Shown piece by piece: positions 789-10,912 of a stretch of 13,832 nucleotides of DNA. The notes beneath the pieces were generated by a model, which had not been told where the DNA came from, searched no databases, and saw only the letters and a program-made list of their open reading frames with translations. The position numbers were made by a program, and so were the translations under genes. Origin of the DNA: Pyrinomonadaceae bacterium (GTDB lineage Bacteria > Acidobacteriota > Blastocatellia > Pyrinomonadales > Pyrinomonadaceae); NCBI GenBank assembly GCA_013812565.1, contig JACCTF010000135.1:1-13832 (forward strand). Reading direction: 5' to 3'. Within the stretch, counting starts at the first letter, position 1. Each line of letters opens with the position of its first letter.

Positions 789-1406
789 TCAACGCTCCTT
801 AGCTTGATCCGGTGAGACGCGAACATGTTCAATTAACTTCTTGAGATTCTCCGCAGGCTGCACGCCGCTCAGCGCCGCTTTACGATTTGCCACGAAAGCC
901 GGGACGCCACTGAGACCCAATGCTTGCGCTTCCCGTTCGTCTTCAAGCACGCTTTTTTCAAACTCACGATGCTCAAGCGCTTGACGCAACGAATCACTAT
1001 CCATCTCTAATTCCGATGCGAGAGAAGCGAGGACTTCTATGTCACCAATGTCCTCTCCTCTTTCGAAGAAGGCGCGGAAGATGACCGCGTTGTAATCGTC
1101 AAAGCGCCCTTGCAGGCGTGCCCAGTGCGCCGCCTCGTGTGCCGGCCGGGAGCGGGGCTGCACGGGAGGAAGCTTCATCGTTATACCTAGCTGCTCGGCC
1201 AAAGGATAAACGGAGTTCATCCACACGCGCTCTAAGTACTCGCCCTTCGGGTCGAGCGCCGGAACGGGGTCAGGGCGCAACTCGAACGCACGCCAGACGA
1301 CCTCAATGTTTACTTCCGCGTTTACCAATTCATGAAGGCTTGGCTCCGCCAACCAGCAGAACGGTCAAACGTAATCGGAGAATATTTCTAACTTTACTAC
1401 TTCCAT
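789..1406 (-). CDS. DsbA/FrnE-family thiol oxidoreductase with in-frame TGA at the active site (candidate selenoprotein, UPFC)
   Basis: Starting at ATG 1406..1404 (AAAGGGAAAG upstream), the frame reads MEVVKLEIFSDYV, then TGA (1367..1365), then PFCWLAEPSLHEL, and stays open to 789, 205 codons in all. FrnE/DSBA-like thioredoxin-fold proteins normally read S-D-Y-V-C-P-F-C-W, so the TGA sits at the nucleophilic Cys (position 14) and the resolving Cys17 is intact. The helical insertion and the cis-proline loop (LSGVPAFV, Pro169) are well kept, which argues against an old pseudogene. TGA is an ordinary stop elsewhere in the window (7594-7596 and 9258-9260). A hairpin in SECIS position follows the TGA. 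I infer Sec insertion giving U-P-F-C. The fallback is a nonsense mutation or sequencing error, leaving only an ORF from TTG at 1352 without the active site. The gene follows the alpha/beta hydrolase by 97 bp, probably co-transcribed. Confidence 0.72.
1337..1354 (-). promoter_or_regulatory. SECIS-like hairpin just downstream of the in-frame TGA
   Basis: In the transcript, GG-UUGGC (1354..1348) pairs with GCCAA-[G]-CC (1344..1337). This gives five plus two base pairs with one bulged G (1339) and a GGA triloop (1347..1345). The first loop base is G, with 17 nt between the TGA and that G. The size, an apical G and this distance agree with the general bacterial SECIS pattern. The call is inferred by hand folding; selB and tRNA-Sec are not in the window. 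Confidence 0.5.
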
Positions 1407-1502: not shown

Positions 1503-2306
1503 CTAAAAGTCGTTACCGCTGGTGCCGGCGAGAATCAACCGCACCGTCTCTTGCGGGACATCCCATTGCGGGAAGTGTCCGCAGTTCTCGAACCAATGCA
1601 GACGTGCATCGGGAAACAGGTTCAACGCCCGCTTCGCCTGACTGGGGAAGCACACGCGGTCGCTTCGTCCCCAACCAATCACGAGCGGATATTTAATCGT
1701 GTTTCTCGGCGCACCTTGTTGAGTTTCACCGTAAGCAAGTTGGTGCAGGAGTTCGTCGAAGGAAGGCGAAGCCGCGTAGCTACGCATCTCGTCAAGCGTG
1801 ACTTTGGGCGACAACTTCCACGCATGCGCCGATAACTGAGCGAAGAGCAGCGTGCGACTTACTGAATTTTCGGTAATAAGCGGCATGACGGGTTGCAGCA
1901 GGCGGACAAGGCGGACTGACAAATAAATCGAGGCGTAAAAGGCGTGTCGTTCCCAACCGCGCCAAAAGCCGCCGGGGTCGAGCGAGACAACCGCTTCCAA
2001 CACGCCGCCGCGTCTGGCTAGTTCAAGCACGAGCCGTGCTCCCATCGAACTGCCAACAGCATCAATGCCAATGAGATTGTTGGCGCTCAGAAACTCAGTG
2101 ACCGCATCGGCGAGAGTTCTGATAGATACTTCACCGTGAAGTGGCGGAGTCGCGCCGAAGCCGGGCAGATCAACGGCGATGACCTCGCGCTCGGCGGTGA
2201 GGTCATCGAGGATCGGACTCCATGAACGCCAATTTCCGCCCAAACCGTGGATGAGAAGCAGCGGTTTGCCCTTCCCCTGTCGAATGTAATTCATTTCTGC
2301 TGCCAC
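1503..2306 (-). CDS. Alpha/beta-fold hydrolase
   Basis: A 267-residue single-domain alpha/beta hydrolase. The oxyanion-hole strand PLLLIHGLGG lies at residues 16-24. The nucleophile elbow G-S-S-M-G is at 85-89, with Ser87. The acid is probably Asp216 in GWGRSD, and the base is His244 in NCGHFPQWDVP. This is the full Ser-Asp-His triad and the normal family length; a cap-like helical region covers about 120-190. The substrate cannot be read from sequence: esterases, epoxide- or haloalkane-type enzymes and meta-cleavage hydrolases share this layout. The GTG start at 2306 is chosen because GGAGGA stands six bases upstream; the ATG at 2294 would be 18 bases away. The gene lies between the MBL fusion (125 bp upstream) and the DsbA-like gene, all co-oriented, so a detoxification or catabolic operon is plausible. 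No signal peptide is seen, so it is probably cytoplasmic. Confidence 0.88.
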   Translation of the reverse strand: MAAEMNYIRQGKGKPLLLIHGLGGNWRSWSPILDDLTAEREVIAVDLPGFGATPPLHGEVSIRTLADAVTEFLSANNLIGIDAVGSSMGARLVLELARRGGVLEAVVSLDPGGFWRGWERHAFYASIYLSVRLVRLLQPVMPLITENSVSRTLLFAQLSAHAWKLSPKVTLDEMRSYAASPSFDELLHQLAYGETQQGAPRNTIKYPLVIGWGRSDRVCFPSQAKRALNLFPDARLHWFENCGHFPQWDVPQETVRLILAGTSGNDF

Positions 2307-2431
2307 GATTGCTCCTCCACTTCAGCGGCTTGTTTCAGAGAGCAAACGAGTCAATGAAATTTCGCTGGTTTGCGTTACCGTTACATATCATGCTTAACAA
2401 ATTGAACACGACATAATGAAGCCACAGCCAC

Positions 2432-4534
2432 TTACCGCAACCTTACGGGCGTGCCATCAATCTTCACGCGGAACAAGCTGTAAGGCTTGACGCGCAGGTC
2501 TCGCCCGTCGTGGTAATCAGCTTGCCGGTGCAATTGATTGGCGGTGAAGTAAAGATAGCCATCTGAAGCGATTGACATGGTGTCCGGCCACAGGGCGCGC
2601 TGGTCATGTACGACAATTTCGAACATTCCGTCAGGCTTGCGACGCACAATGCCATTGGTCTCGTAATCTGTGCAGTAGATACGCCCTTGCGCGTCCGACT
2701 CCAAGCCATCTGATGCGGGTTTCATGCCTTCGTCTTTAACCGTCGCCGCTACTTGAATATCGCTCATGTTTTCATTCAGCAGCGCATCAGTTGCGACGCT
2801 GTACAACCTGCGACTGGCGAGCGGGCAGTAAAACAACCTGGTCCCATCTGCGCTAATCGCAATGCCGTCCGCGCCAAGTTTGATAGGCTGCGGCGGCTGT
2901 CCGGGTTTGCGTTGCATCAGTGCTTCGCCTTCAACGAATGGTAGAAAGTTTGTTTCAGCTTTCGTCGTCGGATGGTCGTTGAGCAGTCGGCGACTTTTTC
3001 CGCTCGCCAGGTCAACGACGATGATTCCGTTCGCACCTTTGTCGGATGAATCGGTGATGTATGCCACGCCGTCCGTACCTTTGCGTAAGTCGAAGCGTAC
3101 ATCGTTAAGGTACGTCGTCGGCAGCACCACGTCAGCCGGAAACTGAATCTTTTTGAAGATACGATTGGTTTGCAAATCAATCCCGACGAGTTTCGGACCA
3201 TTCGGCACCACCGGCTCAAACTTGATGCTGCCCGTATCCAACACCCACAAACGATTGCGCGGATCAACAACGACGGATTGCACAGAGACGAAAGTGTCAT
3301 TGGCTCGTGATATGTCGAGGCGGTTTATCTCTGCGTCCGGGTATGCGACGGGTTGCCCGTTCTTTATTTCCGCGACTGTAAACGGCACCGGATCGCCCCA
3401 GCGCGGGAAGTTGACGAAGATACGTCCGCCTTCTTCGACCGTCACGCCGGTCGGCATCGAATCTGTGAAGGCAACGACCTGTTCAATTGCGCTGGTTGCT
3501 TTATGGCTTGGTAAAGATGGTGCAGCTTGCGCGCGTCTTCCCCGCACCCCGGTGGTGCGTTGCCAGAGCACTGCGACGACTGCCCCGGCGGCGAGGGCGA
3601 GCGCCGCACCTTTGATGAATTTACCCGCCGGGTCAGGCACGGGCGGCGGAACGTAAGTGACGCCACGCTCATCGGCGCGCGCCGGTTCGTGGACATAGCG
3701 CCCGTGTGCCGGTGAGGTGAATGTTTGCGCGAACCGCTGCATCTGGCCCGCAACGTCGCCTTCTTTCATCGGCAACCCGTGTCCCGCCGTGATGACCGTT
3801 GGCTGCAACTCCGCCAAGCGTCTGATTGAGTCGCGCGCCGCCTCCCAATCGGTCGTCAGCGGTGCGGGCGGCTGACGCAGCTCGCGCTCAAGCGTGACAA
3901 GGGTAATGACCGATTCCTGATTAACGGTGGCGAGCGCGTCGCCGGTAATCAGTGTGCGATCACGCTCACGGAAAAGAGAGACGTGCCCGGCAGTGTGTCC
4001 CGGTGTGTGAATCACGCGCCAATCGGGTAGCCCCGGCACGCTGCCGTCCTGCGGCAAGGGTTGCACCACGCTTCCAAAGTCGTAGCCGGAATGAGGGAAG
4101 AGGCGTGACATCTGCGCAAGCGCACCACCGACGGTCGGGTCTTGCGGCGGGTAATCGGACTTGCCTGTGAGATAAGGGAGCTCTAATTCGTGCGCATAGA
4201 TGGGCACGCCCCAGTCACGCGCGAGGTCAAGCGCGTTACCGGCATGGTCGAAGTGTCCATGCGTGAGGATGATGCTCGTGGGCCGTGCGTTCGTGCCGAA
4301 GCGGTCTTCTGCCGCACGGCGGACACGCGCAGCTTGGAGTGGCAGCCCCGTATCAATCAGCGACCAAGAACCGTCGGACGCCTCGACAAAATAAAGGTTG
4401 ACGAACACTGTCATCAGGTATGTCACGCCCGACGCGACGTGTTGCGTCAAGCTCTCTTTCTCACGCGAGATAATCGCTTCACTTACCACTTTCGTGATCC
4501 TCCCAATTTGAAGGTAGTCACAAGCGCAGCTCAT
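2432..4534 (-). CDS. Fusion: metallo-beta-lactamase-fold hydrolase + membrane helix + royal-jelly/Yellow-type beta-propeller
   Basis: One uninterrupted 700-residue frame. Residues about 35-265 are an MBL-fold hydrolase: THGHFDH (His92, His94, Asp96, His97), His180 in HTPGHT, Asp199 in TGDA and His252 in AGHG, a complete dinuclear metal set. A proline-rich linker (HGRYVHEPARADERG, then VPPPVPDP) leads to one hydrophobic helix at about 306-324, followed by a basic stretch (RTTGVRGRR). Residues about 345-700 resemble the major royal jelly protein/Yellow family: NFPRWGDPVPFTVAEI, VQSVVVDPRNRLWVLDTG and YLNDVRFD match its typical blades. The helix could anchor one domain on each side of the membrane; topology is not clear from charges. 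An ATG at 4534 has AAGG six bases upstream, but a GTG at 4489 has the stronger GGGAGG nine bases upstream, and the first 15 residues look atypical, so the true start may be 4489. Substrates are unknown. Confidence 0.85.
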   Translation of the reverse strand: MSCACDYLQIGRITKVVSEAIISREKESLTQHVASGVTYLMTVFVNLYFVEASDGSWSLIDTGLPLQAARVRRAAEDRFGTNARPTSIILTHGHFDHAGNALDLARDWGVPIYAHELELPYLTGKSDYPPQDPTVGGALAQMSRLFPHSGYDFGSVVQPLPQDGSVPGLPDWRVIHTPGHTAGHVSLFRERDRTLITGDALATVNQESVITLVTLERELRQPPAPLTTDWEAARDSIRRLAELQPTVITAGHGLPMKEGDVAGQMQRFAQTFTSPAHGRYVHEPARADERGVTYVPPPVPDPAGKFIKGAALALAAGAVVAVLWQRTTGVRGRRAQAAPSLPSHKATSAIEQVVAFTDSMPTGVTVEEGGRIFVNFPRWGDPVPFTVAEIKNGQPVAYPDAEINRLDISRANDTFVSVQSVVVDPRNRLWVLDTGSIKFEPVVPNGPKLVGIDLQTNRIFKKIQFPADVVLPTTYLNDVRFDLRKGTDGVAYITDSSDKGANGIIVVDLASGKSRRLLNDHPTTKAETNFLPFVEGEALMQRKPGQPPQPIKLGADGIAISADGTRLFYCPLASRRLYSVATDALLNENMSDIQVAATVKDEGMKPASDGLESDAQGRIYCTDYETNGIVRRKPDGMFEIVVHDQRALWPDTMSIASDGYLYFTANQLHRQADYHDGRDLRVKPYSLFRVKIDGTPVRLR

Positions 4535-4577
4535 GACTACCTTCTCGTTTATTGAATAAGTTCAAGACATCAGGTTT

Positions 4578-5750
4578 CTATGGTTTCAGCACGATCTTAA
4601 TGCAGCCGTCCTGCTTGTGCTTGAAGGTTTCATATCCTTTGGGCGCGTCGTCGAGCGGCATACGGTGCGTAATGATGAAGCTCGGATCAATCTCGCCGTT
4701 CACAACCTTTTTCAAGAGAGGTTCGAGATAACGCTGGACATGCGTCTGTCCCGCTTTGATCGTCAGTCCTTTATTCATTGCCGCACCAAACGGAATCTTA
4801 TCTAAAAATCCGACATAGACGCCGGGCACTGAAATCGTGCCTGCCTTACGGCAGCACATGATCGCCTGACGAAGTACATGCGCGCGGTCAGTTGCAAGAT
4901 AAGTCGCCGTTTTTATGTTATCCACAATCCCGTCTAATTTGCCGCCGGCATGTGCTTCGCAACCAACTGCATCCATGCAGCGGTCGGGTCCGCGTCCGCC
5001 GGTCATCTCCATCAAACGGTCATAAACATCCACTTCTTCGAAGTTAATGGTCTCTGCTTTGCCATGCTGCTCCGCCATCCGAAGGCGCTCAGGCACACGA
5101 TCAATCGCAATCACACGTCCTGCGCCAAGCATCCATGCGCTCTTAATGGCGAACTGCCCGACCGGCCCGCCACCCCAGATTGCTACCGTGTCGCCCGCTT
5201 CGATGTCGCAGTTCTCCGCCGCCATATAGCCGGTCGGGAAAATGTCAGAGAGAAACAGAACCTTTTCGTCAGGGATTCCATCGGGAATCTTGATTGGTCC
5301 GACATCGGCGAATGGAACGCGCAGGTATTCAGCTTGCCCGCCCGCATAGCCGCCGAGCATGTGTGAGAAACCGAACAGCCCTGCCGGTGATTGACCCATC
5401 ACCTCGCGAGCCATTTCCGCATTCGGGTTCGAGTTGTCGCAGCAGGAGAACAATCCCTTCTGGCAGAAGAAACACTGTCCACAAGAGATCGTGAATGGCA
5501 CGACGACGCGGTCGCCAACTTTCAAGTTTTTGATTTCCTTGCCGACCTCGACGACTTCGCCCATGTTTTCATGGCCGAGTATGTCGCCCTTCTCCATCGT
5601 CGGCTGGTAGCCGTCATAAAGGTGCAGGTCGGAACCGCAGATCGCTGTTGAAGTAATTTTAATAACAGCGTCGCTCTGGTTAATTATCTTCGGGTCAGGC
5701 ACCTGCTCGACGCTCACGCTGTTCTTTCCTTGCCAACATAAGGCTTTCAT
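4578..5750 (-). CDS. Zinc-dependent alcohol dehydrogenase, formaldehyde-dehydrogenase-like (medium-chain MDR)
   Basis: A 390-residue medium-chain dehydrogenase. The catalytic zinc site is Cys38 (AICGSDLH) and His60-Glu61 (LGHENMGEV), with Asp169 as the probable further ligand. Four cysteines at 90, 93, 96 and 104 ([15 protein letters not shown]) form the structural zinc lobe. The Rossmann loop GGGPVG is at 193-198, and the following strand ends in Asp217 (AIDR), favouring NAD(H). The insert near 105-145 and the [10 protein letters not shown] segment resemble glutathione-independent formaldehyde dehydrogenases and related threonine-type MDRs, so an aldehyde or alcohol substrate is likely; I would not name it more exactly. 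AAGGAG lies seven bases before the ATG. The 43-bp gap to the MBL fusion downstream suggests co-transcription. Upstream is a 311-bp spacer with an inverted repeat close to the start. Confidence 0.9.
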
Positions 5751-5796
5751 CGCATTTCTCCTTAGTTAAGTTACCGGTGGTGGGTGGGGTGTGATT

Positions 5797-5842
5797 GGTG
5801 TTTGTACGAAGGCAATCAAAATTGTTCTTCGTGCTAAACACC
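5797..5842 (-). promoter_or_regulatory. Long imperfect hairpin upstream of the Zn-ADH
   Basis: GGTGTTT-GT-ACGAAG (5797-5811) is mirrored by CTTCGT-GC-TAAACACC (5827-5842). Between them CAAT (5813-5816) pairs with ATTG (5821-5824) around a CAAA loop, so the stem can run nearly end to end with small internal loops. It sits 47 bp upstream of the ADH ATG on the minus strand, so it could be an operator or a 5'-leader structure. No T-run makes it a terminator. Confidence 0.4.
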
Positions 5843-5937
5843 GACCACCACAATTTACCTTCTTCAAACCCGCATCATCCGCGTTCTTGTTAAGGACGTT
5901 GATCGTGATGGGGTCGCCTTTGGGTTTGACCGACGCG

Positions 5938-5977
5938 ACTGGCCGCTAACCCGGACGTCATCGGGTTAGCGGCCAGT
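5938..5977. repeat. Perfect 16-bp inverted repeat with 8-nt loop
   Basis: ACTGGCCGCTAACCCG (5938-5953) and its exact reverse complement (5962-5977) flank GACGTCAT. The stem is GC-rich and very stable on either strand. It lies 84 bp beyond the SDR stop codon. No U-tract follows on either strand, so it is not a standard rho-independent terminator; a transcript-stabilising element, a Rho-assisted stop or a dispersed palindromic (REP-like) repeat are all possible. Confidence 0.55.
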
Positions 5978-6061
5978 TCGTGAAGCAGCATGTCGGTCGC
6001 CGAAGGCGAAACCGCGAGTTCGAGGGTGCGGTGCATTTACGCGAGACCTGTTCGGAGCGAT

Positions 6062-7093
6062 TTAGCGTCTCGCGCCGTTCTGTCTGTTTTGTGACGCACG
6101 CACCAACGCGGCGACGGCTAATCCCGCCCCCGCGACCAGCGCGACAGTCGCAATCGGACGCAGCGATGCCTGCGTATAGAGGCTCGACTCCATTGTGTGT
6201 CCTTCATAACCACCCCGCTCGGCAAGGTGCTCGGATGGGCGGTCAAGTCCGTTAACCTCACGCGGGCGCGCCGGTTTGTTCTTCTTCTGCGTATTAACGA
6301 ATAGACTGCTTTCCATAATCTTGTCGGCGAGGCGAGGCGCGTAGTAACCGAGTGCGGCGAGACCTTTGCCGCCGCCACCTGCGAACACGTCACGCTCCGG
6401 AACTTCGGCGCAATGCAGAATAGCTTGTGCGACAACCTCCGGCGCATAGACGGGCGGCGGAAGCGTTGCTTCTTTGTCCATGTAGTTCTTCGCGTTGCGC
6501 GGGAAGGGAGTGTCAATCGCGGCCGGCTTGATGAGCGTCACAGAGACGGGCGCGCCATCGGCTTCGAGCTCCATGCGGAGCGCGTCTGTGAAGCCTTTGA
6601 CAGCGTGCTTCGAGGTTGAGTAGATGCCTTGCATGTGAACCACACGCTCCGACACGGTGCTGCCGATGTTGATGAGCGCCCCGCCCCTCTGCTTCAAATG
6701 CTTGACGGCTTCGAGCGAGCCGTAAACCAAGCCCCAGAAGTTCGTCTCGAACAGGTGCCGCATATCTTCAATCTTGATCTCTTCGAGTTTGCCGAAAATC
6801 CCGACGCCCGCGTCGTTAACCCACGTGTCGAAGCCGCCGAACGCCTCTTGCGCTGCTCGCGCGATCTTGCGCACGTCTTCTTGCTTGCTGACATCGGCAA
6901 CCACATATATAGCTTTGCCGCCGGTGCGCCTGATCTCATCCGTCAATTGACGCAGCGCGTTTTCGCTGCGTGCGGCGAGCACGAGCCGCGCCCCGCGCTT
7001 AGCTGCCATGCGCGCCGTCGTCAAACCTATACCCGATGATGCGCCTGTAATCACTATTGTCTGTTGTTTAAGGTTCTTCAGTTTCACTGCCAT
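6062..7093 (-). CDS. SDR-family oxidoreductase with C-terminal membrane helix
   Basis: A 343-residue classical short-chain dehydrogenase. The NAD(P)-binding motif TGASSGIG is at 16-23. A basic residue follows the second strand (AARSE, Arg42), which favours NADP(H). D-V at 67-68 contacts the adenine. The motif at 93-96 is N-D-A-G instead of the usual N-N-A-G. Ser145, Tyr158 and Lys162 (YSTSK) complete the catalytic set. After the SDR core (about 1-255) comes an extra tail with a polar linker and a hydrophobic helix at about 313-331 (VALVAGAGLAVAALV) ending in basic residues, so the enzyme is probably held at the inner face of the membrane by its C-terminus. The ATG at 7093 has AAAGGA seven bases upstream. 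The substrate is unknown. It lies between the STAS-like ORF and the Zn-ADH in the redox cluster. Confidence 0.92.
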   Translation of the reverse strand: MAVKLKNLKQQTIVITGASSGIGLTTARMAAKRGARLVLAARSENALRQLTDEIRRTGGKAIYVVADVSKQEDVRKIARAAQEAFGGFDTWVNDAGVGIFGKLEEIKIEDMRHLFETNFWGLVYGSLEAVKHLKQRGGALINIGSTVSERVVHMQGIYSTSKHAVKGFTDALRMELEADGAPVSVTLIKPAAIDTPFPRNAKNYMDKEATLPPPVYAPEVVAQAILHCAEVPERDVFAGGGGKGLAALGYYAPRLADKIMESSLFVNTQKKNKPARPREVNGLDRPSEHLAERGGYEGHTMESSLYTQASLRPIATVALVAGAGLAVAALVRASQNRQNGARR

Positions 7094-7188
7094 CGTTAAA
7101 TCCTTTCCTTATGTACTTCTGCTTTTCCAGCATTGTGCCTTGCGTGGCCTGTATTCGTCCATCCGGACGTTGCCGCAGGGGTCATGCC

Positions 7189-7512
7189 TCAAAATTTTGT
7201 CCGTTCGTAATGTCCATTGAGAACGGCTTCATTCATCTCGCCTGAACCGATAAGACCCTCTTTGTTACGGTGCATCTCAGCCAGCAGTTTTTCGCCTGCT
7301 TCGTCAGCGAAAGTCATTGCCGACAAATCTACTATTACGCTTCTCGTCGAAGGCGAACCGATTATCTCCTGCCAACTCTTACAAAACCTCTCAGCGAAAT
7401 CTAGTGATCTGAGAAACGGAGGATAGCAGACGGTAGGAGGGGGACGTGTAATTACATTTGCGGTTTTATGATGTTTACTTGTCGCCACACAGCTCGACAC
7501 TTTGATAACCAC
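7189..7512 (-). CDS. STAS-domain-like small protein, N-terminus probably degraded
   Basis: The C-terminal half of this 107-codon frame reads SVIVDLSAMTFADEAGEKLL then AEMHRNKEGLI. That is the strand-helix core of STAS / anti-sigma-antagonist-like domains (V-x-V-D-L-S-x-[VM]-T-F-x-D-x-A-G-x-x-L-L). Residues from about 37 (LDFAERFCKSWQEII) fit the preceding helix. The first 35 residues, rich in Thr, Pro and His, do not look like the first two strands of the domain, and the GTG start at 7512 has no evident ribosome-binding site. Either the gene is 5'-damaged or translation begins elsewhere. A role in partner switching or membrane signalling is family knowledge only. It sits 81 bp after the ene-reductase and 95 bp before the SDR. 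Confidence 0.4.
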   Translation of the reverse strand: MVIKVSSCVATSKHHKTANVITRPPPTVCYPPFLRSLDFAERFCKSWQEIIGSPSTRSVIVDLSAMTFADEAGEKLLAEMHRNKEGLIGSGEMNEAVLNGHYERTKF

Positions 7513-7593
7513 CGAGCGCCAGGCGTCCGGCTGAAATCTTCTTTGTTCCGTGTCATGCCCCCTTGCGTTTTTGTGTATTTGCTATGTATTGGC

Positions 7594-8706
7594 TCAGGCG
7601 TGTTGAGCGTGTTGCTGGTCGAGTACCGGGTAATCGATGTAGCCGCGCGCATCGCCGCCGTAAAAGCTGGATGTGTCTGGGGGATTCAGTTCCACGCCGG
7701 TGCGAAAGCGTTCCGGCAAATCGGGGTTAGCGATGAACAGTTTACCGAACGCGACGAGGTCTGCGTCACCCGTCGCGAGCACGCGTTCAGCCTTCTCTTT
7801 GTCGTACCCGCCCGCCGTGATGATCTTACCCTCAAAAATCGCGCGCAGGTATGTTGTTGGCGAAGTCGGCGTTCCGTTCACGGAGATGCCGCCAACGGGT
7901 TCAATGATGTGGAGGTAGGCAAGACGGAAGCAGTTCAGTTCACGGGCGACATAACCGAAAGTGCCTGCGGGGTCTGAATCGTGCATCGTGTTGAAGATTC
8001 CACCCGGCGACAGTCGCACACCAACTCTATCCGCGCCCCATACACCTGTTACCGCTTCCACCACTTCCAACAACAGACGTGCGCGGTTGCTCGGAGAACC
8101 GCCGTACACGTCTGTGCGCTTGTTGGTGCTGTCCTCCAAGAACTGATTGAGCAGGTAGCCGTTTGCGCCATGAATCTCCACTCCATCGAAGCCTGCTTCA
8201 CGCGCATTGACCGCGCCCTGCCGGAAGCCTTCAACGATGCCGGGAATCTCAGCCGTCTCCAACGCGCGCGGCGTGACGAACGGTTGCAGTCCCGTGTAGG
8301 TGAAGACTTCGCCATCGGCAGCGATAGCGGAAGGAGCGACCGGAAGTTCACCACCACGTTGCAGCGAAGGATGCGAGATGCGCCCGACGTGCCAGAGTTG
8401 CAGAAATATGCGTCCGCCCTTCGCATGCACCGCATCTGTTATTCGTCGCCAACCGGCGATCTGCTCCGGCGTATGAACGCCGGGAGTCAATGGATAGCCG
8501 ATGCCCTGCTCGGAGAAATGCGTCGCCTCCGTGATGATCAGCGCCGCTGAAGCACGCTGAGCGTAATATGTGGCGTTCATCTCGGTAGGCGCGAGACCCT
8601 CGCCCGCGCGACTACGTGTCAGCGGTGCCATCACGATCCGGTGCGGTAGCTCAAGCGCACCAACTTTAACCTGTGAAAATAGAATGCTCGTGTTGTCGTT
8701 GCTCAT
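7594..8706 (-). CDS. Old Yellow Enzyme-family ene-reductase (NADH:flavin oxidoreductase, NemA-like)
   Basis: A 370-residue FMN-dependent TIM barrel. The signs are PHRIVMAPLTRSRA near the N-terminus, FLQLWHVGRISHP (flavin and phenolic-ligand strand), and HGANGYLLNQFL with His179, Asn182 and Tyr184, the substrate-binding pair and proton donor of classical OYEs. FLEDSTNKRTDVYGGS and the C-terminal AFGKLFIANPDLPER phosphate-binding region are complete. Such enzymes reduce the C=C bond of alpha,beta-unsaturated carbonyls, maleimides and nitro compounds with NAD(P)H. The ATG at 8706 is chosen over the in-frame TTG at 8712 because AGGA is eight bases before the ATG and only two before the TTG. It lies 69 bp downstream of trxA, probably in one transcript. 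The gene ends in TGA, evidence that TGA is a normal stop in this genome. Confidence 0.95.
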   Translation of the reverse strand: MSNDNTSILFSQVKVGALELPHRIVMAPLTRSRAGEGLAPTEMNATYYAQRASAALIITEATHFSEQGIGYPLTPGVHTPEQIAGWRRITDAVHAKGGRIFLQLWHVGRISHPSLQRGGELPVAPSAIAADGEVFTYTGLQPFVTPRALETAEIPGIVEGFRQGAVNAREAGFDGVEIHGANGYLLNQFLEDSTNKRTDVYGGSPSNRARLLLEVVEAVTGVWGADRVGVRLSPGGIFNTMHDSDPAGTFGYVARELNCFRLAYLHIIEPVGGISVNGTPTSPTTYLRAIFEGKIITAGGYDKEKAERVLATGDADLVAFGKLFIANPDLPERFRTGVELNPPDTSSFYGGDARGYIDYPVLDQQHAQHA

Positions 8707-8775
8707 AACCAATTTCCTAGTTCCTTCCTTGCTCTTTATGCGATCTTCTCCATGAGATCAAGCTGCCACTTCAAA

Positions 8776-9129
8776 TTAAGCTTGCGCCTGTTGCACTTTC
8801 GTGCCGACGTGCTTCTCTACCAAGCGCGATAGCGGTTCCTTGCCGACGGCACCGACGATTCGCTCGGCTTCCTTGCCGTCGCGGAAGAGGATCAGCGTCG
8901 GGATGCCCTTGATGCCATACGCCGCGGCGACACTGGGGTTATAGTCCACGTTTAATTTGGCGACGCGCACACGCCCCTCATACTCCTTTGCCATCGCCTC
9001 GACCGTCGGCGCAATTATGCGACACGGCGCACACCACTCAGCCCAGAAATCCACCAGCACCGGGACGTCGGCGTTAATTACGTCCTGCTCAAAACTCGTG
9101 TCGTTCACTTCCTTCACATGTTCACTCAT
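8776..9129 (-). CDS. trxA: Thioredoxin
   Basis: A 117-residue single-domain thioredoxin: VPVLVDFWAEWCAPCR carries the redox pair Cys33/Cys36, and KGIPTLILF gives the cis-proline (Pro77). The active site is C-A-P-C instead of C-G-P-C, which may shift redox potential slightly; C-A-P-C is a known variant. It reduces cytoplasmic disulfides, using electrons from thioredoxin reductase, which is not in the window. The ATG at 9129 is favoured over the GTG directly before it because AGGAGG lies seven bases upstream. A 12-bp sequence shared with the arsR upstream region stands 52 bp before the start, suggesting control by the neighbouring regulator. The ene-reductase follows directly. Confidence 0.95.
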   Translation of the reverse strand: MSEHVKEVNDTSFEQDVINADVPVLVDFWAEWCAPCRIIAPTVEAMAKEYEGRVRVAKLNVDYNPSVAAAYGIKGIPTLILFRDGKEAERIVGAVGKEPLSRLVEKHVGTKVQQAQA

Positions 9130-9172
9130 CACGCTTCCTCCTGCTGTGTACTGCTAGTTGCATTAACAAACA

Positions 9173-9194
9173 ATTCTACAATCATCTAAATAAA
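9173..9194 (-). promoter_or_regulatory. Candidate ArsR operator upstream of trxA
   Basis: The minus strand reads TATTTAGATGAT (9192..9181), identical over 12 bp to a site in front of arsR. Flanking bases also agree (GTA after one mismatch), about 18 of 22 positions. It sits 52-63 bp before the trxA ATG, a usual place for an operator or promoter. Confidence 0.45.
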
Positions 9195-9257
9195 GCTATC
9201 CTACAAACACCCGCGACAACAGTAAGGGGATACCTATGCCACCCCATCAAACCCGTA

Positions 9258-9605
9258 TCACCTTCGCGAGTGCGTCGTTGTCCTCACACCTGCTTTAGAT
9301 CCACGGCGTGGCTTCACTCCGGCGCGTGGTTTCGCATTGATGCGTTGCACAAGTTCCTCAACATACGCGGTAAGGACTTCCCGGCGCACGCTAAAATACT
9401 TGAACTGTCCTTCACACCGCGCCTCGATTAGCTCTGCGTCAGCCAACTCTTTTAGGTGGTGCGACACAGTCGCCTGCGATACTGGAAAGCAGTCTGAGAT
9501 TGAACCGCAACACATTTCGTCGCTCGCCGCAATCGTCTCGAATATCTCGAACCGACGCGGGTCTGCCAATGCCTTCGCTACTTTATGGAATTGTGCTCCG
9601 TTCAT
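9258..9605 (-). CDS. ArsR-family winged-helix transcriptional regulator
   Basis: A 115-residue protein with the ArsR/SmtB fold: ALADPRRFEIFETI (helix 1-2), CFPVSQATVSHHLKELADA (helix-turn-helix recognition helix, about 39-57), and LIEARCEGQFKYFSV (beta wing). Cys32, Cys33 and Cys39 lie in EMCCGSISDCF, the position of the E-L-C-V-C-D-L metal box of ArsR, and Cys64 is in the wing. This suggests metal(loid) or thiol-redox sensing, with release from DNA on binding or oxidation. A basic tail (KPRRGSKAG) may add DNA contacts. The ATG at 9605 lacks a clear Shine-Dalgarno site. A 12-bp motif 19 bp upstream recurs before trxA, pointing to autoregulation plus control of trxA and perhaps the genes after it. 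Confidence 0.9.
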   Translation of the reverse strand: MNGAQFHKVAKALADPRRFEIFETIAASDEMCCGSISDCFPVSQATVSHHLKELADAELIEARCEGQFKYFSVRREVLTAYVEELVQRINAKPRAGVKPRRGSKAGVRTTTHSRR

Positions 9606-9615
9606 AATCTAGACG

Positions 9616-9637
9616 TTTATACCATCATCTAAATAGA
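9616..9637 (-). promoter_or_regulatory. Candidate ArsR operator upstream of arsR
   Basis: Second copy of TATTTAGATGAT (9635..9624, minus strand), followed by GGTATAAA. It lies 19-30 bp before the arsR ATG and so would overlap the promoter, as expected for autoregulation. Confidence 0.45.
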
Positions 9638-9889
9638 ACGTCAACTGCTACAATATCTTTTAAGGATTCACCGCCTATCAGTCCTGCACCTCGATTACAT
9701 TGTTGATATGCTCGGATACTAGCCAACCAAGCGGCGCGTCTGGTTTTCTGCGTTCAAAGCTAAAAGGTTCGAGATTATATGTCCGGCTGCTGGTTGCAGA
9801 CCCGCGTGCCGGTAATATGGGTTGACTCTCTTTATGCTCGCGTCAAATAATTCGCTTAATAAATTTTTGTTGTTAATACGCTGCGTGTC
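9638..9889. other. Spacer between the LLM oxidoreductase and arsR, no supported gene
   Basis: This region is AT-richer than the neighbouring genes. One minus-strand frame stays open for about 54 codons (roughly 9840 to 9676) but has no usable start codon and no recognisable motif. I saw no terminator with a U-tract. It presumably holds the arsR promoter and the end of the LLM transcript. Confidence 0.35.
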
Positions 9890-10912
9890 CTATCCCGGCG
9901 CGAGCGCAAAGGCTTTGGCAAGTAGAGTGTAAGAGCGTCGCCGCTCCTTGTGGTCGTGGGTCATCGTCGTCACCATTATCTCAGTAACGCCTGCTTGCTC
10001 GGCGAGACTGAAGATTTGCTCGCGCACCGTTGCAGGTGATCCCACGAAAAGCCGCTCCCGGTTCATTTGCACCACTTCCTCTTCGTCGGAGGTGTAAGGG
10101 TAGTTAGTCGCTTCTGAGACGCTCGGCAGTTGTGTTCTAAACTTTCCTTGAGTAAACCGTAGTAGAGTCAGGTCAGCGGAGCGTGCCAACACATTTGCCT
10201 GTTCGTCTGTCTCTGCGCAAACGACTGATGCCGCCAGCAGAGATTGCGGCGCGGCGAAGCGGGGAGAAGGGCGAAATTGCTCCTGATAAAGTCGAAGCGC
10301 GGCAAGCGCGGGCGCAGGATTAATGTGATGAGCAAAGGCGAACCCTAGTCCCAATTCCCCCGCCAGCCGTGCGCTGAAATCGCTGGAACCGAGCAGCCAA
10401 ATGTCCGGCGTCCGCACGCCTTCAGGAATCGCCATGACGCGCTGGAACGGATGATCGCCGGAAAAATCTCCAGAGAAGAAAGCTAACAACTCGTTGAGTT
10501 GTTCGGGGAAGTCGTCGGTTGCGAGCGCCGCGCGCGAACGCCTCAAGGCGAGTGCTGTTAGATAATCGGTGCCCGGCGCGCGACCTATTCCGAGGTCAAC
10601 TCGATTTGGGTGGAGCGCCTCCAGCGTGCGGAAAGTCTCAGCCACTTTAAGCGGCGCGTGGTTGGGCAACATTACCCCGCCCGAGCCGACACGGATTCTC
10701 TTCGTCACACCAGCGACGTGCCCGATCATAACTTCAGGCGCGGAGATAGCGACAAGCTCAGTGTTGTGGTGCTCGGCGAGCCAGTAACGCGTGTAGCCTA
10801 GTTCGTCAGCAAGCTTCGCCAAATCAAGCGTGTTGCGTAAGGCATCCGCCGCCGTGGAACCGGAGGGCACCGGCGAAAGATCAAGCACTGACAAGCGAAT
10901 CGGTAACTTCAT
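9890..10912 (-). CDS. LLM-class flavin-dependent oxidoreductase (luciferase-like monooxygenase)
   Basis: A 340-residue bacterial-luciferase-like TIM barrel. The family marks are LSVLDLSPVPSG at the N-terminus, LGYTRYWLAEHHN (39-50), VGSGGVMLPNHAPLKVAE (75-92) and HPNRVDLGIGRAPGTD (101-116). The C-terminal LFVGSPATVREQI is the usual phosphate-binding end. Such enzymes use FMN or F420. This MsnO8-like subgroup is usually annotated only as LLM oxidoreductase, and its substrate is unknown. The ATG at 10912 overlaps the stop of a doubtful 67-codon frame (TAATG), and its Shine-Dalgarno site is weak. It stands upstream of arsR, between glgC and the redox cluster. Confidence 0.9.
   Translation of the reverse strand: MKLPIRLSVLDLSPVPSGSTAADALRNTLDLAKLADELGYTRYWLAEHHNTELVAISAPEVMIGHVAGVTKRIRVGSGGVMLPNHAPLKVAETFRTLEALHPNRVDLGIGRAPGTDYLTALALRRSRAALATDDFPEQLNELLAFFSGDFSGDHPFQRVMAIPEGVRTPDIWLLGSSDFSARLAGELGLGFAFAHHINPAPALAALRLYQEQFRPSPRFAAPQSLLAASVVCAETDEQANVLARSADLTLLRFTQGKFRTQLPSVSEATNYPYTSDEEEVVQMNRERLFVGSPATVREQIFSLAEQAGVTEIMVTTMTHDHKERRRSYTLLAKAFALAPG

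Follow-up and report, generated by a model that had tools for sequence, protein, structure and literature searches.

The stretch of DNA analysed here (hereafter the window, 13,832 nucleotides) carries on its minus strand a gene of 205 codons that is interrupted by a single in-frame UGA. Reading through this codon, positions 1406-789 of the minus strand give a product of 205 residues, MEVVKLEIFSDYV-U-PFCWLAEPS..., where U stands for selenocysteine (Sec). The features of the gene are the following:

789..1406, minus strand: predicted Sec-containing FrnE-type gene, 205 codons, one in-frame UGA, terminal stop TGA at 791-789
1404..1406, minus strand: ATG start codon, with the purine-rich AAGAAAGGGAAAGAC upstream
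1365..1367, minus strand: UGA, predicted to be read as selenocysteine, residue 14 and first residue of U-P-F-C
1356..1358, minus strand: codon of the putative resolving cysteine 17 of U-P-F-C, the sole cysteine of the protein
1354-1337, minus strand: SECIS-like stem-loop, its stem of seven pairs holding one bulged base and its apex formed by a GGA loop at 1347-1345
900..908, minus strand: GVP 167-169, taken as the cis-proline loop; V168 and P169 are invariant in a 19-row alignment

The cis conformation of the last of these is assumed by analogy with the fold family. As the sequence-only reading had claimed, the TGA at 1367-1365 falls, within one frame, exactly on the first cysteine of a CPFC motif; the frame 3' of it is open, the next stop being the terminal TGA (791-789); and AAGAAAGGGAAAGAC, a purine-rich putative ribosome site, precedes the ATG at 1406. 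It was also right that TGA is not globally recoded, because the ene-reductase and arsR genes of the window end in TGA. Gene callers do miss the active site, as it had foreseen, but they do not start the gene at 1352: the database protein (P0002) has 179 aa and begins at a TTG at 1328.

Upstream of the gene, a run of minus-strand genes (1503-10912) encodes a luciferase-like monooxygenase, an ArsR-type regulator, a thioredoxin (8776-9132), an ene-reductase, an SDR, an ADH, an MBL-MRJP protein and an alpha/beta hydrolase, a combination suggestive of redox or electrophile-stress functions. The MBL-MRJP protein (2432-4534, 700 aa) combines metallo-beta-lactamase and Major royal jelly protein (MRJP) domains, a pairing that is not known to be common. 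When the neighbourhoods of 27 loci, some with short flanks, were compared (ORFs of at least 90 aa, blastp E 1e-10), no neighbouring family recurred in more than four loci, and none of those shown came from the window. Thus, the context gives no function, and the link to the thioredoxin gene is only suggestive.

The protein matches the Pfam DSBA family (PF01323) with 130.7 bits, against a gathering score of 25.6; NCBIfam gave no match above its cut-off. By sequence, the closest PDB chains are those of Deinococcus FrnE (E 6.5e-23). A structure model built from 19 homologues reached a mean pLDDT of 94.1, and its five best Foldseek matches were all Deinococcus radiodurans FrnE entries (TMq 0.82-0.86). 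Note that the folded protein, as well as alignment A1, carries an extra last residue, the terminal TGA having been read as Cys. With FrnE as the nearest solved structures and a CP(W/F)C-type motif whose first cysteine is the UGA, the protein was assigned to the FrnE subfamily. A C-terminal CxxxxC was not found, since the protein has no cysteine beyond residue 17. This does not exclude FrnE, because the FrnE proteins of D. maricopensis and S. roseofulvus, as described in the available text of the source, also lack it. By eye, the N-terminus (MEVVKLEIFSDYV) runs directly into the fold, with no apparent signal peptide, which would suit a cytoplasmic location.

The host assembly is a MAG of an uncultured acidobacterium (90.7% complete, 3.27% contamination). 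A search for selA, selB, selD and a tRNA-Sec with a UCA anticodon, which the sequence-only reading had proposed with the warning that absence of selB or tRNA-Sec would count against selenocysteine, recovered all four. A single tRNA-Sec scored above the cut-off (70.6 bits), and ARAGORN called it a tRNA-SeC with a tca anticodon; selB scored 367 bits and selA 543 bits. The selD gene is split over two contig ends, with scores of 235 and 116.7 bits, the second piece lying below the cut-off of 125. The first piece (G000:C38:3-554) has an in-frame TGA of its own, in MVTCAG-U-VAKL, and selD is likely a second selenoprotein of this organism.

The best explanation for these observations, which we hold with high confidence, is that the gene encodes a selenoprotein, a FrnE-type oxidoreductase of the DsbA fold in which a stem-loop helps the UGA of codon 14 to be read as Sec. 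SelB and tRNA-Sec would decode this UGA, the stem-loop directly 3' of it would help the decoding, and the product would be a small, probably cytoplasmic enzyme with the active site U14-P-F-C17. In such an enzyme, Sec14 would be both the attacking and the leaving selenolate, and Cys17 would resolve the intermediate, giving a selenenylsulfide. Because Cys17 is the sole cysteine and the C-terminal CxxxxC of D. radiodurans FrnE has no counterpart here, an external reductant would be needed to recharge the enzyme, thioredoxin being the likeliest. In the available text of PMC8945050, the CxxxxC of D. radiodurans FrnE is proposed to regenerate the active site, and some FrnE proteins are described as lacking it.

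The most likely role is that of a cytoplasmic disulfide reductase or isomerase. What the analysis shows directly is the machinery, the conserved codon, coding selection to either side of the UGA, the hairpin signal of the group and, as a model, the fold; the insertion of Sec, the catalysis, the reductant, the location and the substrates are inferred. The DsbA fold also serves oxidant, isomerase and glutathione-linked roles, and the same selenoprotein could be one of these enzymes instead of a thioredoxin-recharged reductase, an alternative that lies within the selenoprotein reading and that we regard as unlikely, though not negligible. The weaker Foldseek matches do include kappa-class GST and HCCA isomerase, and D. 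radiodurans FrnE is credited with isomerase activity too (PMC8945050, available text). However, the best matches are Deinococcus FrnE proteins, proposed there to act as a cytoplasmic disulfide reductase, and the U-x-x-C is kept.

The selenoprotein reading is also supported by the close relatives of the gene, most of which have the same TGA and a stem-loop. Among 42 counted homologues, the codon at the site was TGA in 23, TGC in 11 and TGT in 8, and nothing else; the UGA thus pairs with the Cys of relatives in the alignment, a comparison that the sequence-only reading had proposed. This set omits 14 loci of the named-contig scan whose contigs, by length and match, were duplicates of others in the set; also omitted were L041, L045 and the Cys loci L089-L107, which are more distant. 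In total, 33 distinct related genes, that of the window included, have TGA at the nucleophile codon (the 23 of the counted set, L112-L120 and L121), and nearly all the others that were translated have Cys. In a search of 145 genomes, 14, including the host genome, had a TGA-form homologue after inspection; the Cys forms found were L028, L029, L037-L039 and L041. Genome G109 is a fifteenth TGA genome, as it carries, beside its Cys form, a second homologue (L121; G109:C30, 301-888) that is 33% identical and has UPWC. When 396 genomes of the phylum were searched, 14 matches were obtained at E<=1e-30, 13 of them with one TGA, always at the active-site codon. Hence, the TGA is not at this codon by chance, as had been argued from the window; and, since only 14 of the 396 genomes have such a match, the gene is scattered and not universal in the phylum.

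In named contigs, TGA was present in 19 of 56 loci and Cys in 37 of 56, bearing in mind that one of the two scan patterns required Cys. The labels of the TGA carriers are Acidobacteria, Chloracidobacterium, Pyrinomonadaceae, Blastocatellia, Methylomirabilota, Binatia, Deltaproteobacteria, Rubrobacter, Gemmatimonadetes and Betaproteobacteria. Two of the Deltaproteobacteria carriers come from records described as chromosomes (CP070843 and CP070689). All these carriers are titled MAG, and some of the taxon labels may be binning artefacts.

If the UGA were instead a true stop, the gene would be a decaying or truncated copy, and only the frame from 1352 or 1328 would be translated, without the active site. 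This is how gene callers annotate it: P0002 and 100 more of the 120 best-listed database homologues (of 3338) start after the site, with lengths of 166-191 aa. However, the peptide before the UGA is under selection. In 21 of the 23 Sec genes, which were those taken into this count, divergence at codon positions 1, 2 and 3 was 0.189, 0.060 and 0.578 before the UGA, and 0.253, 0.172 and 0.586 far after it. The changes before the UGA are therefore mostly third-position ones, which indicates that the N-terminal peptide is translated and conserved. Furthermore, the codon was TGA, TGC or TGT in all 42 counted genes, and the 23 Sec genes have no internal stop beyond the UGA except for one in L024, where the matched range is about to end, and one in L059. 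A shortened product would also be without the catalytic motif. The decay scenario raised by the sequence-only reading, in which close relatives have Cys and no conserved hairpin and the gene shows other damage, does not apply, as the close relatives mostly have TGA followed by a stem-loop and the gene shows no further damage. We consider a true stop very improbable.

Equally improbable is that, through suppression or a code change, the UGA specifies tryptophan or some other amino acid of the standard set. Five of the 120 best-listed homologues (of 3338) do have Trp at the site (WPFC; P0008, P0010, P0013, P0015 and P0026), but gene calling with UGA as Trp would give this, and it would be expected if that code had been applied to Sec-using bacteria. 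Other genes of the window terminate in TGA, all 19 counted genes without UGA have Cys there, Trp would abolish the thiol chemistry, and the Sec machinery is present in the genome. That a TGC or TGT became TGA through an error of sequencing or assembly is highly implausible, because 33 distinct genes share the codon, and the assemblies they come from are many and of different sources.

The region directly after the UGA has a stem-loop with a G in its small apical loop, as in bacterial SECIS elements (GGA in the window). The hairpin described from the sequence alone, with 7 bp, a GGA loop and a stem from the 11th base after the TGA, is there; it also has one bulged base that had gone unmentioned. 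Taken alone, the window hairpin does not stand out: when 1367-1323 was shuffled with its dinucleotides preserved, 16 of 200 shuffles folded equally well or better, and p was 0.154 against synonymous recodings (500 per gene). As a group, the 23 Sec genes had a mean z of -1.42 in this recoding test, with p<=0.05 in 10 of them, versus a mean z of +0.20 and p<=0.05 in none of the 19 Cys genes. Seven of the nine new Sec genes (without L118 and L120, L121 also being left out) again gave a mean z of -1.42, with 3 of the 7 at p<=0.05. Note that these are not independent trials, because the Sec genes are kin.

Covariation in the 7-bp stem, analysed in alignment A2 (21 of the 23 Sec genes, without L036 and L040), was not above that of shuffles, 433 of 500 of which reached the observed pairing (20 distinct among the 21 sequences). 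In this alignment, 88.6% of the cells pair, slid versions reach at most 50.7%, and one pair shows a double change. Given this negative result, the case for the hairpin rests on the synonymous recoding. The third-position divergence was 0.432 over the first 15 codons that follow the UGA versus 0.586 further on, as would be expected if RNA structure were constrained there too. The letters of the hairpin differ by lineage: a GGTTGGC-GGA-GCCAGCC type, CTGGCTC-GGC-GAGCCAG in L033 and L034, and GGGGA-GTT-TCCCC in L040; L025-L027 have lost the pair that closes the common form. In the more distant FrnE-like UPWC genes L115, L117 and L119, the stem-loop that follows the UGA has another shape and a loop of 5 nt. 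Rfam had no match above the gathering score at 1280-1420.

We also analysed the Sec machinery of the other genomes. A tRNA-Sec above the cut-off was present in 128 of the 145 related genomes, the host genome included. Therefore, its presence discriminates weakly and seems to have been inherited across the group. The whole genomes with TGA at the nucleophile codon had it in 21 of 24 cases (14 of the 15, including G109, in the 145-genome set, and 7 of the 9 others). One of these, G433, is marginal, with 48.8 bits against a cut-off of 47, and tRNA-Ser genes score close to this (46.7 in the host genome). In G064, G294 and G342 the TGA form is present and no tRNA-Sec above the cut-off was found. 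These three and G433 have selA above the cut-off, and selB was found in G294, G342 and G433, the three that were searched for it. G144 forms a contrast: in its 28%-identical homologue (L122; G144:C102, minus strand) the TGA takes the place of the second Cys (CPW-U), not the first. In this genome neither selA nor selB scored above the cut-offs, and the best tRNA match had 47.1 bits against a cut-off of 47. As the TGA is at a different codon, it may reflect decay, an error or some other cause, and this gene was excluded from the 33 nucleophile-TGA genes.

A tree of 61 rows requires at least nine changes between Sec and Cys when the five Trp proteins are treated as Sec; 19 of its 58 inner branches are drawn open because their support is weak. 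The Cys genes L028 and L029 lie among Sec genes, and the Sec gene L040 lies among Cys genes. The closest partner of L040 in the tree is a Cys gene (support 91/56), and L040 has a hairpin that its Cys relatives L037-L039 lack. Since the stems of L040 and L113 are similar in shape and both carry a GUU loop, an ancestral Sec with later losses fits as well as an independent gain of Sec from Cys in L040. Tentatively, and aware that this may well prove wrong, we propose that the FrnE-type enzymes of Acidobacteriota were anciently Sec-containing and are one of the overlooked selenoproteins of the phylum; that Sec and Cys were exchanged repeatedly (at least nine times on the 61-row tree), the SECIS decaying after each change from Sec to Cys; and that selenium is tied, through this clade, to disulfide reduction in the cytoplasm of soil bacteria.

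The 120 best-listed database homologues (of 3338) comprise 14 with CPxC in addition to the Trp and late-start proteins mentioned above. Together, the 101 late-start proteins, P0002 among them, and the five with Trp suggest that the database view of the clade is mostly wrong; we infer that the contigs behind all 101 carry Sec genes. Neither the extent of the clade nor this misannotation was met in the available text of the prior literature, many subscription papers being outside the coverage.

Proteins of this kind are already known, since Sec-containing DsbA-like proteins of COG2761 were reported in 2005 as nine Sargasso Sea sequences (PMC1088965), a precedent that the sequence-only reading did not mention. 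Available portions of later papers list four DsbA-like selenoproteins in 2006 (PMC1794560), 63 'DsbA 1' selenoproteins in GOS in 2008 (PMC2398784), a 'DsbA-like protein' in a 2022 review (PMC9312934) and a DsbA-like 'form 1' in a 2026 review (PMC13188914). In the available text of PMC1978522, frnE is assigned to COG2761. The term FrnE is absent from the available text of PMC2398784, PMC9312934 and PMC13188914, and the main text, as available, of the 2025 deep-Sep paper, which has an acidobacterium among its test genomes, mentions no DsbA (PMC12013277). Literature searches for selenocysteine with FrnE gave nothing relevant, as judged from the listing and with many subscription papers outside the coverage, and those for selenoprotein with 2-hydroxychromene-2-carboxylate isomerase gave nothing. 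To the known family we add the spread in Acidobacteriota, the switching between Sec and Cys and the likely misannotation of Sec FrnE-type genes, as well as a well-supported, structurally anchored Sec enzyme for this phylum. With natural Sec and Cys versions side by side and a solved Cys relative, the benefit of selenium to a disulfide reductase would be directly testable.

Finally, we compared the protein with the known systems. The published Sec DsbA-like proteins (COG2761/PF01323), as far as the available texts describe them, belong to the DsbA family, have Sec first in UxxC and have a bacterial SECIS after the UGA; the gene described here has matching features, with Sec as the predicted reading of its UGA and a SECIS-like stem-loop after it. 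Unlike the window gene, the sequences of 2005 and 2008 came from ocean sampling. The later names were equated with the 2005 family through the reference numbers of the reviews and the Pfam entry, as given in the available texts, and are likened to our protein by description (the form 1 exemplar is NIP15863.1). The Streptomyces coelicolor SCO1869 (3gl5), a probable DsbA oxidoreductase, has the same fold (TMq 0.79) and is more distant in sequence (E 5.3e-13). The best match in both sequence and fold is D. radiodurans FrnE (DR_0659; PDB 5cnw, 5cp1 and others). It differs from the Sec protein in having a C-terminal CxxxxC at 239-244 (PMC8945050, available text), and its CPWC occupies the same place as the UPFC described here, with Cys in the Deinococcus enzyme and, very probably, Sec in ours.
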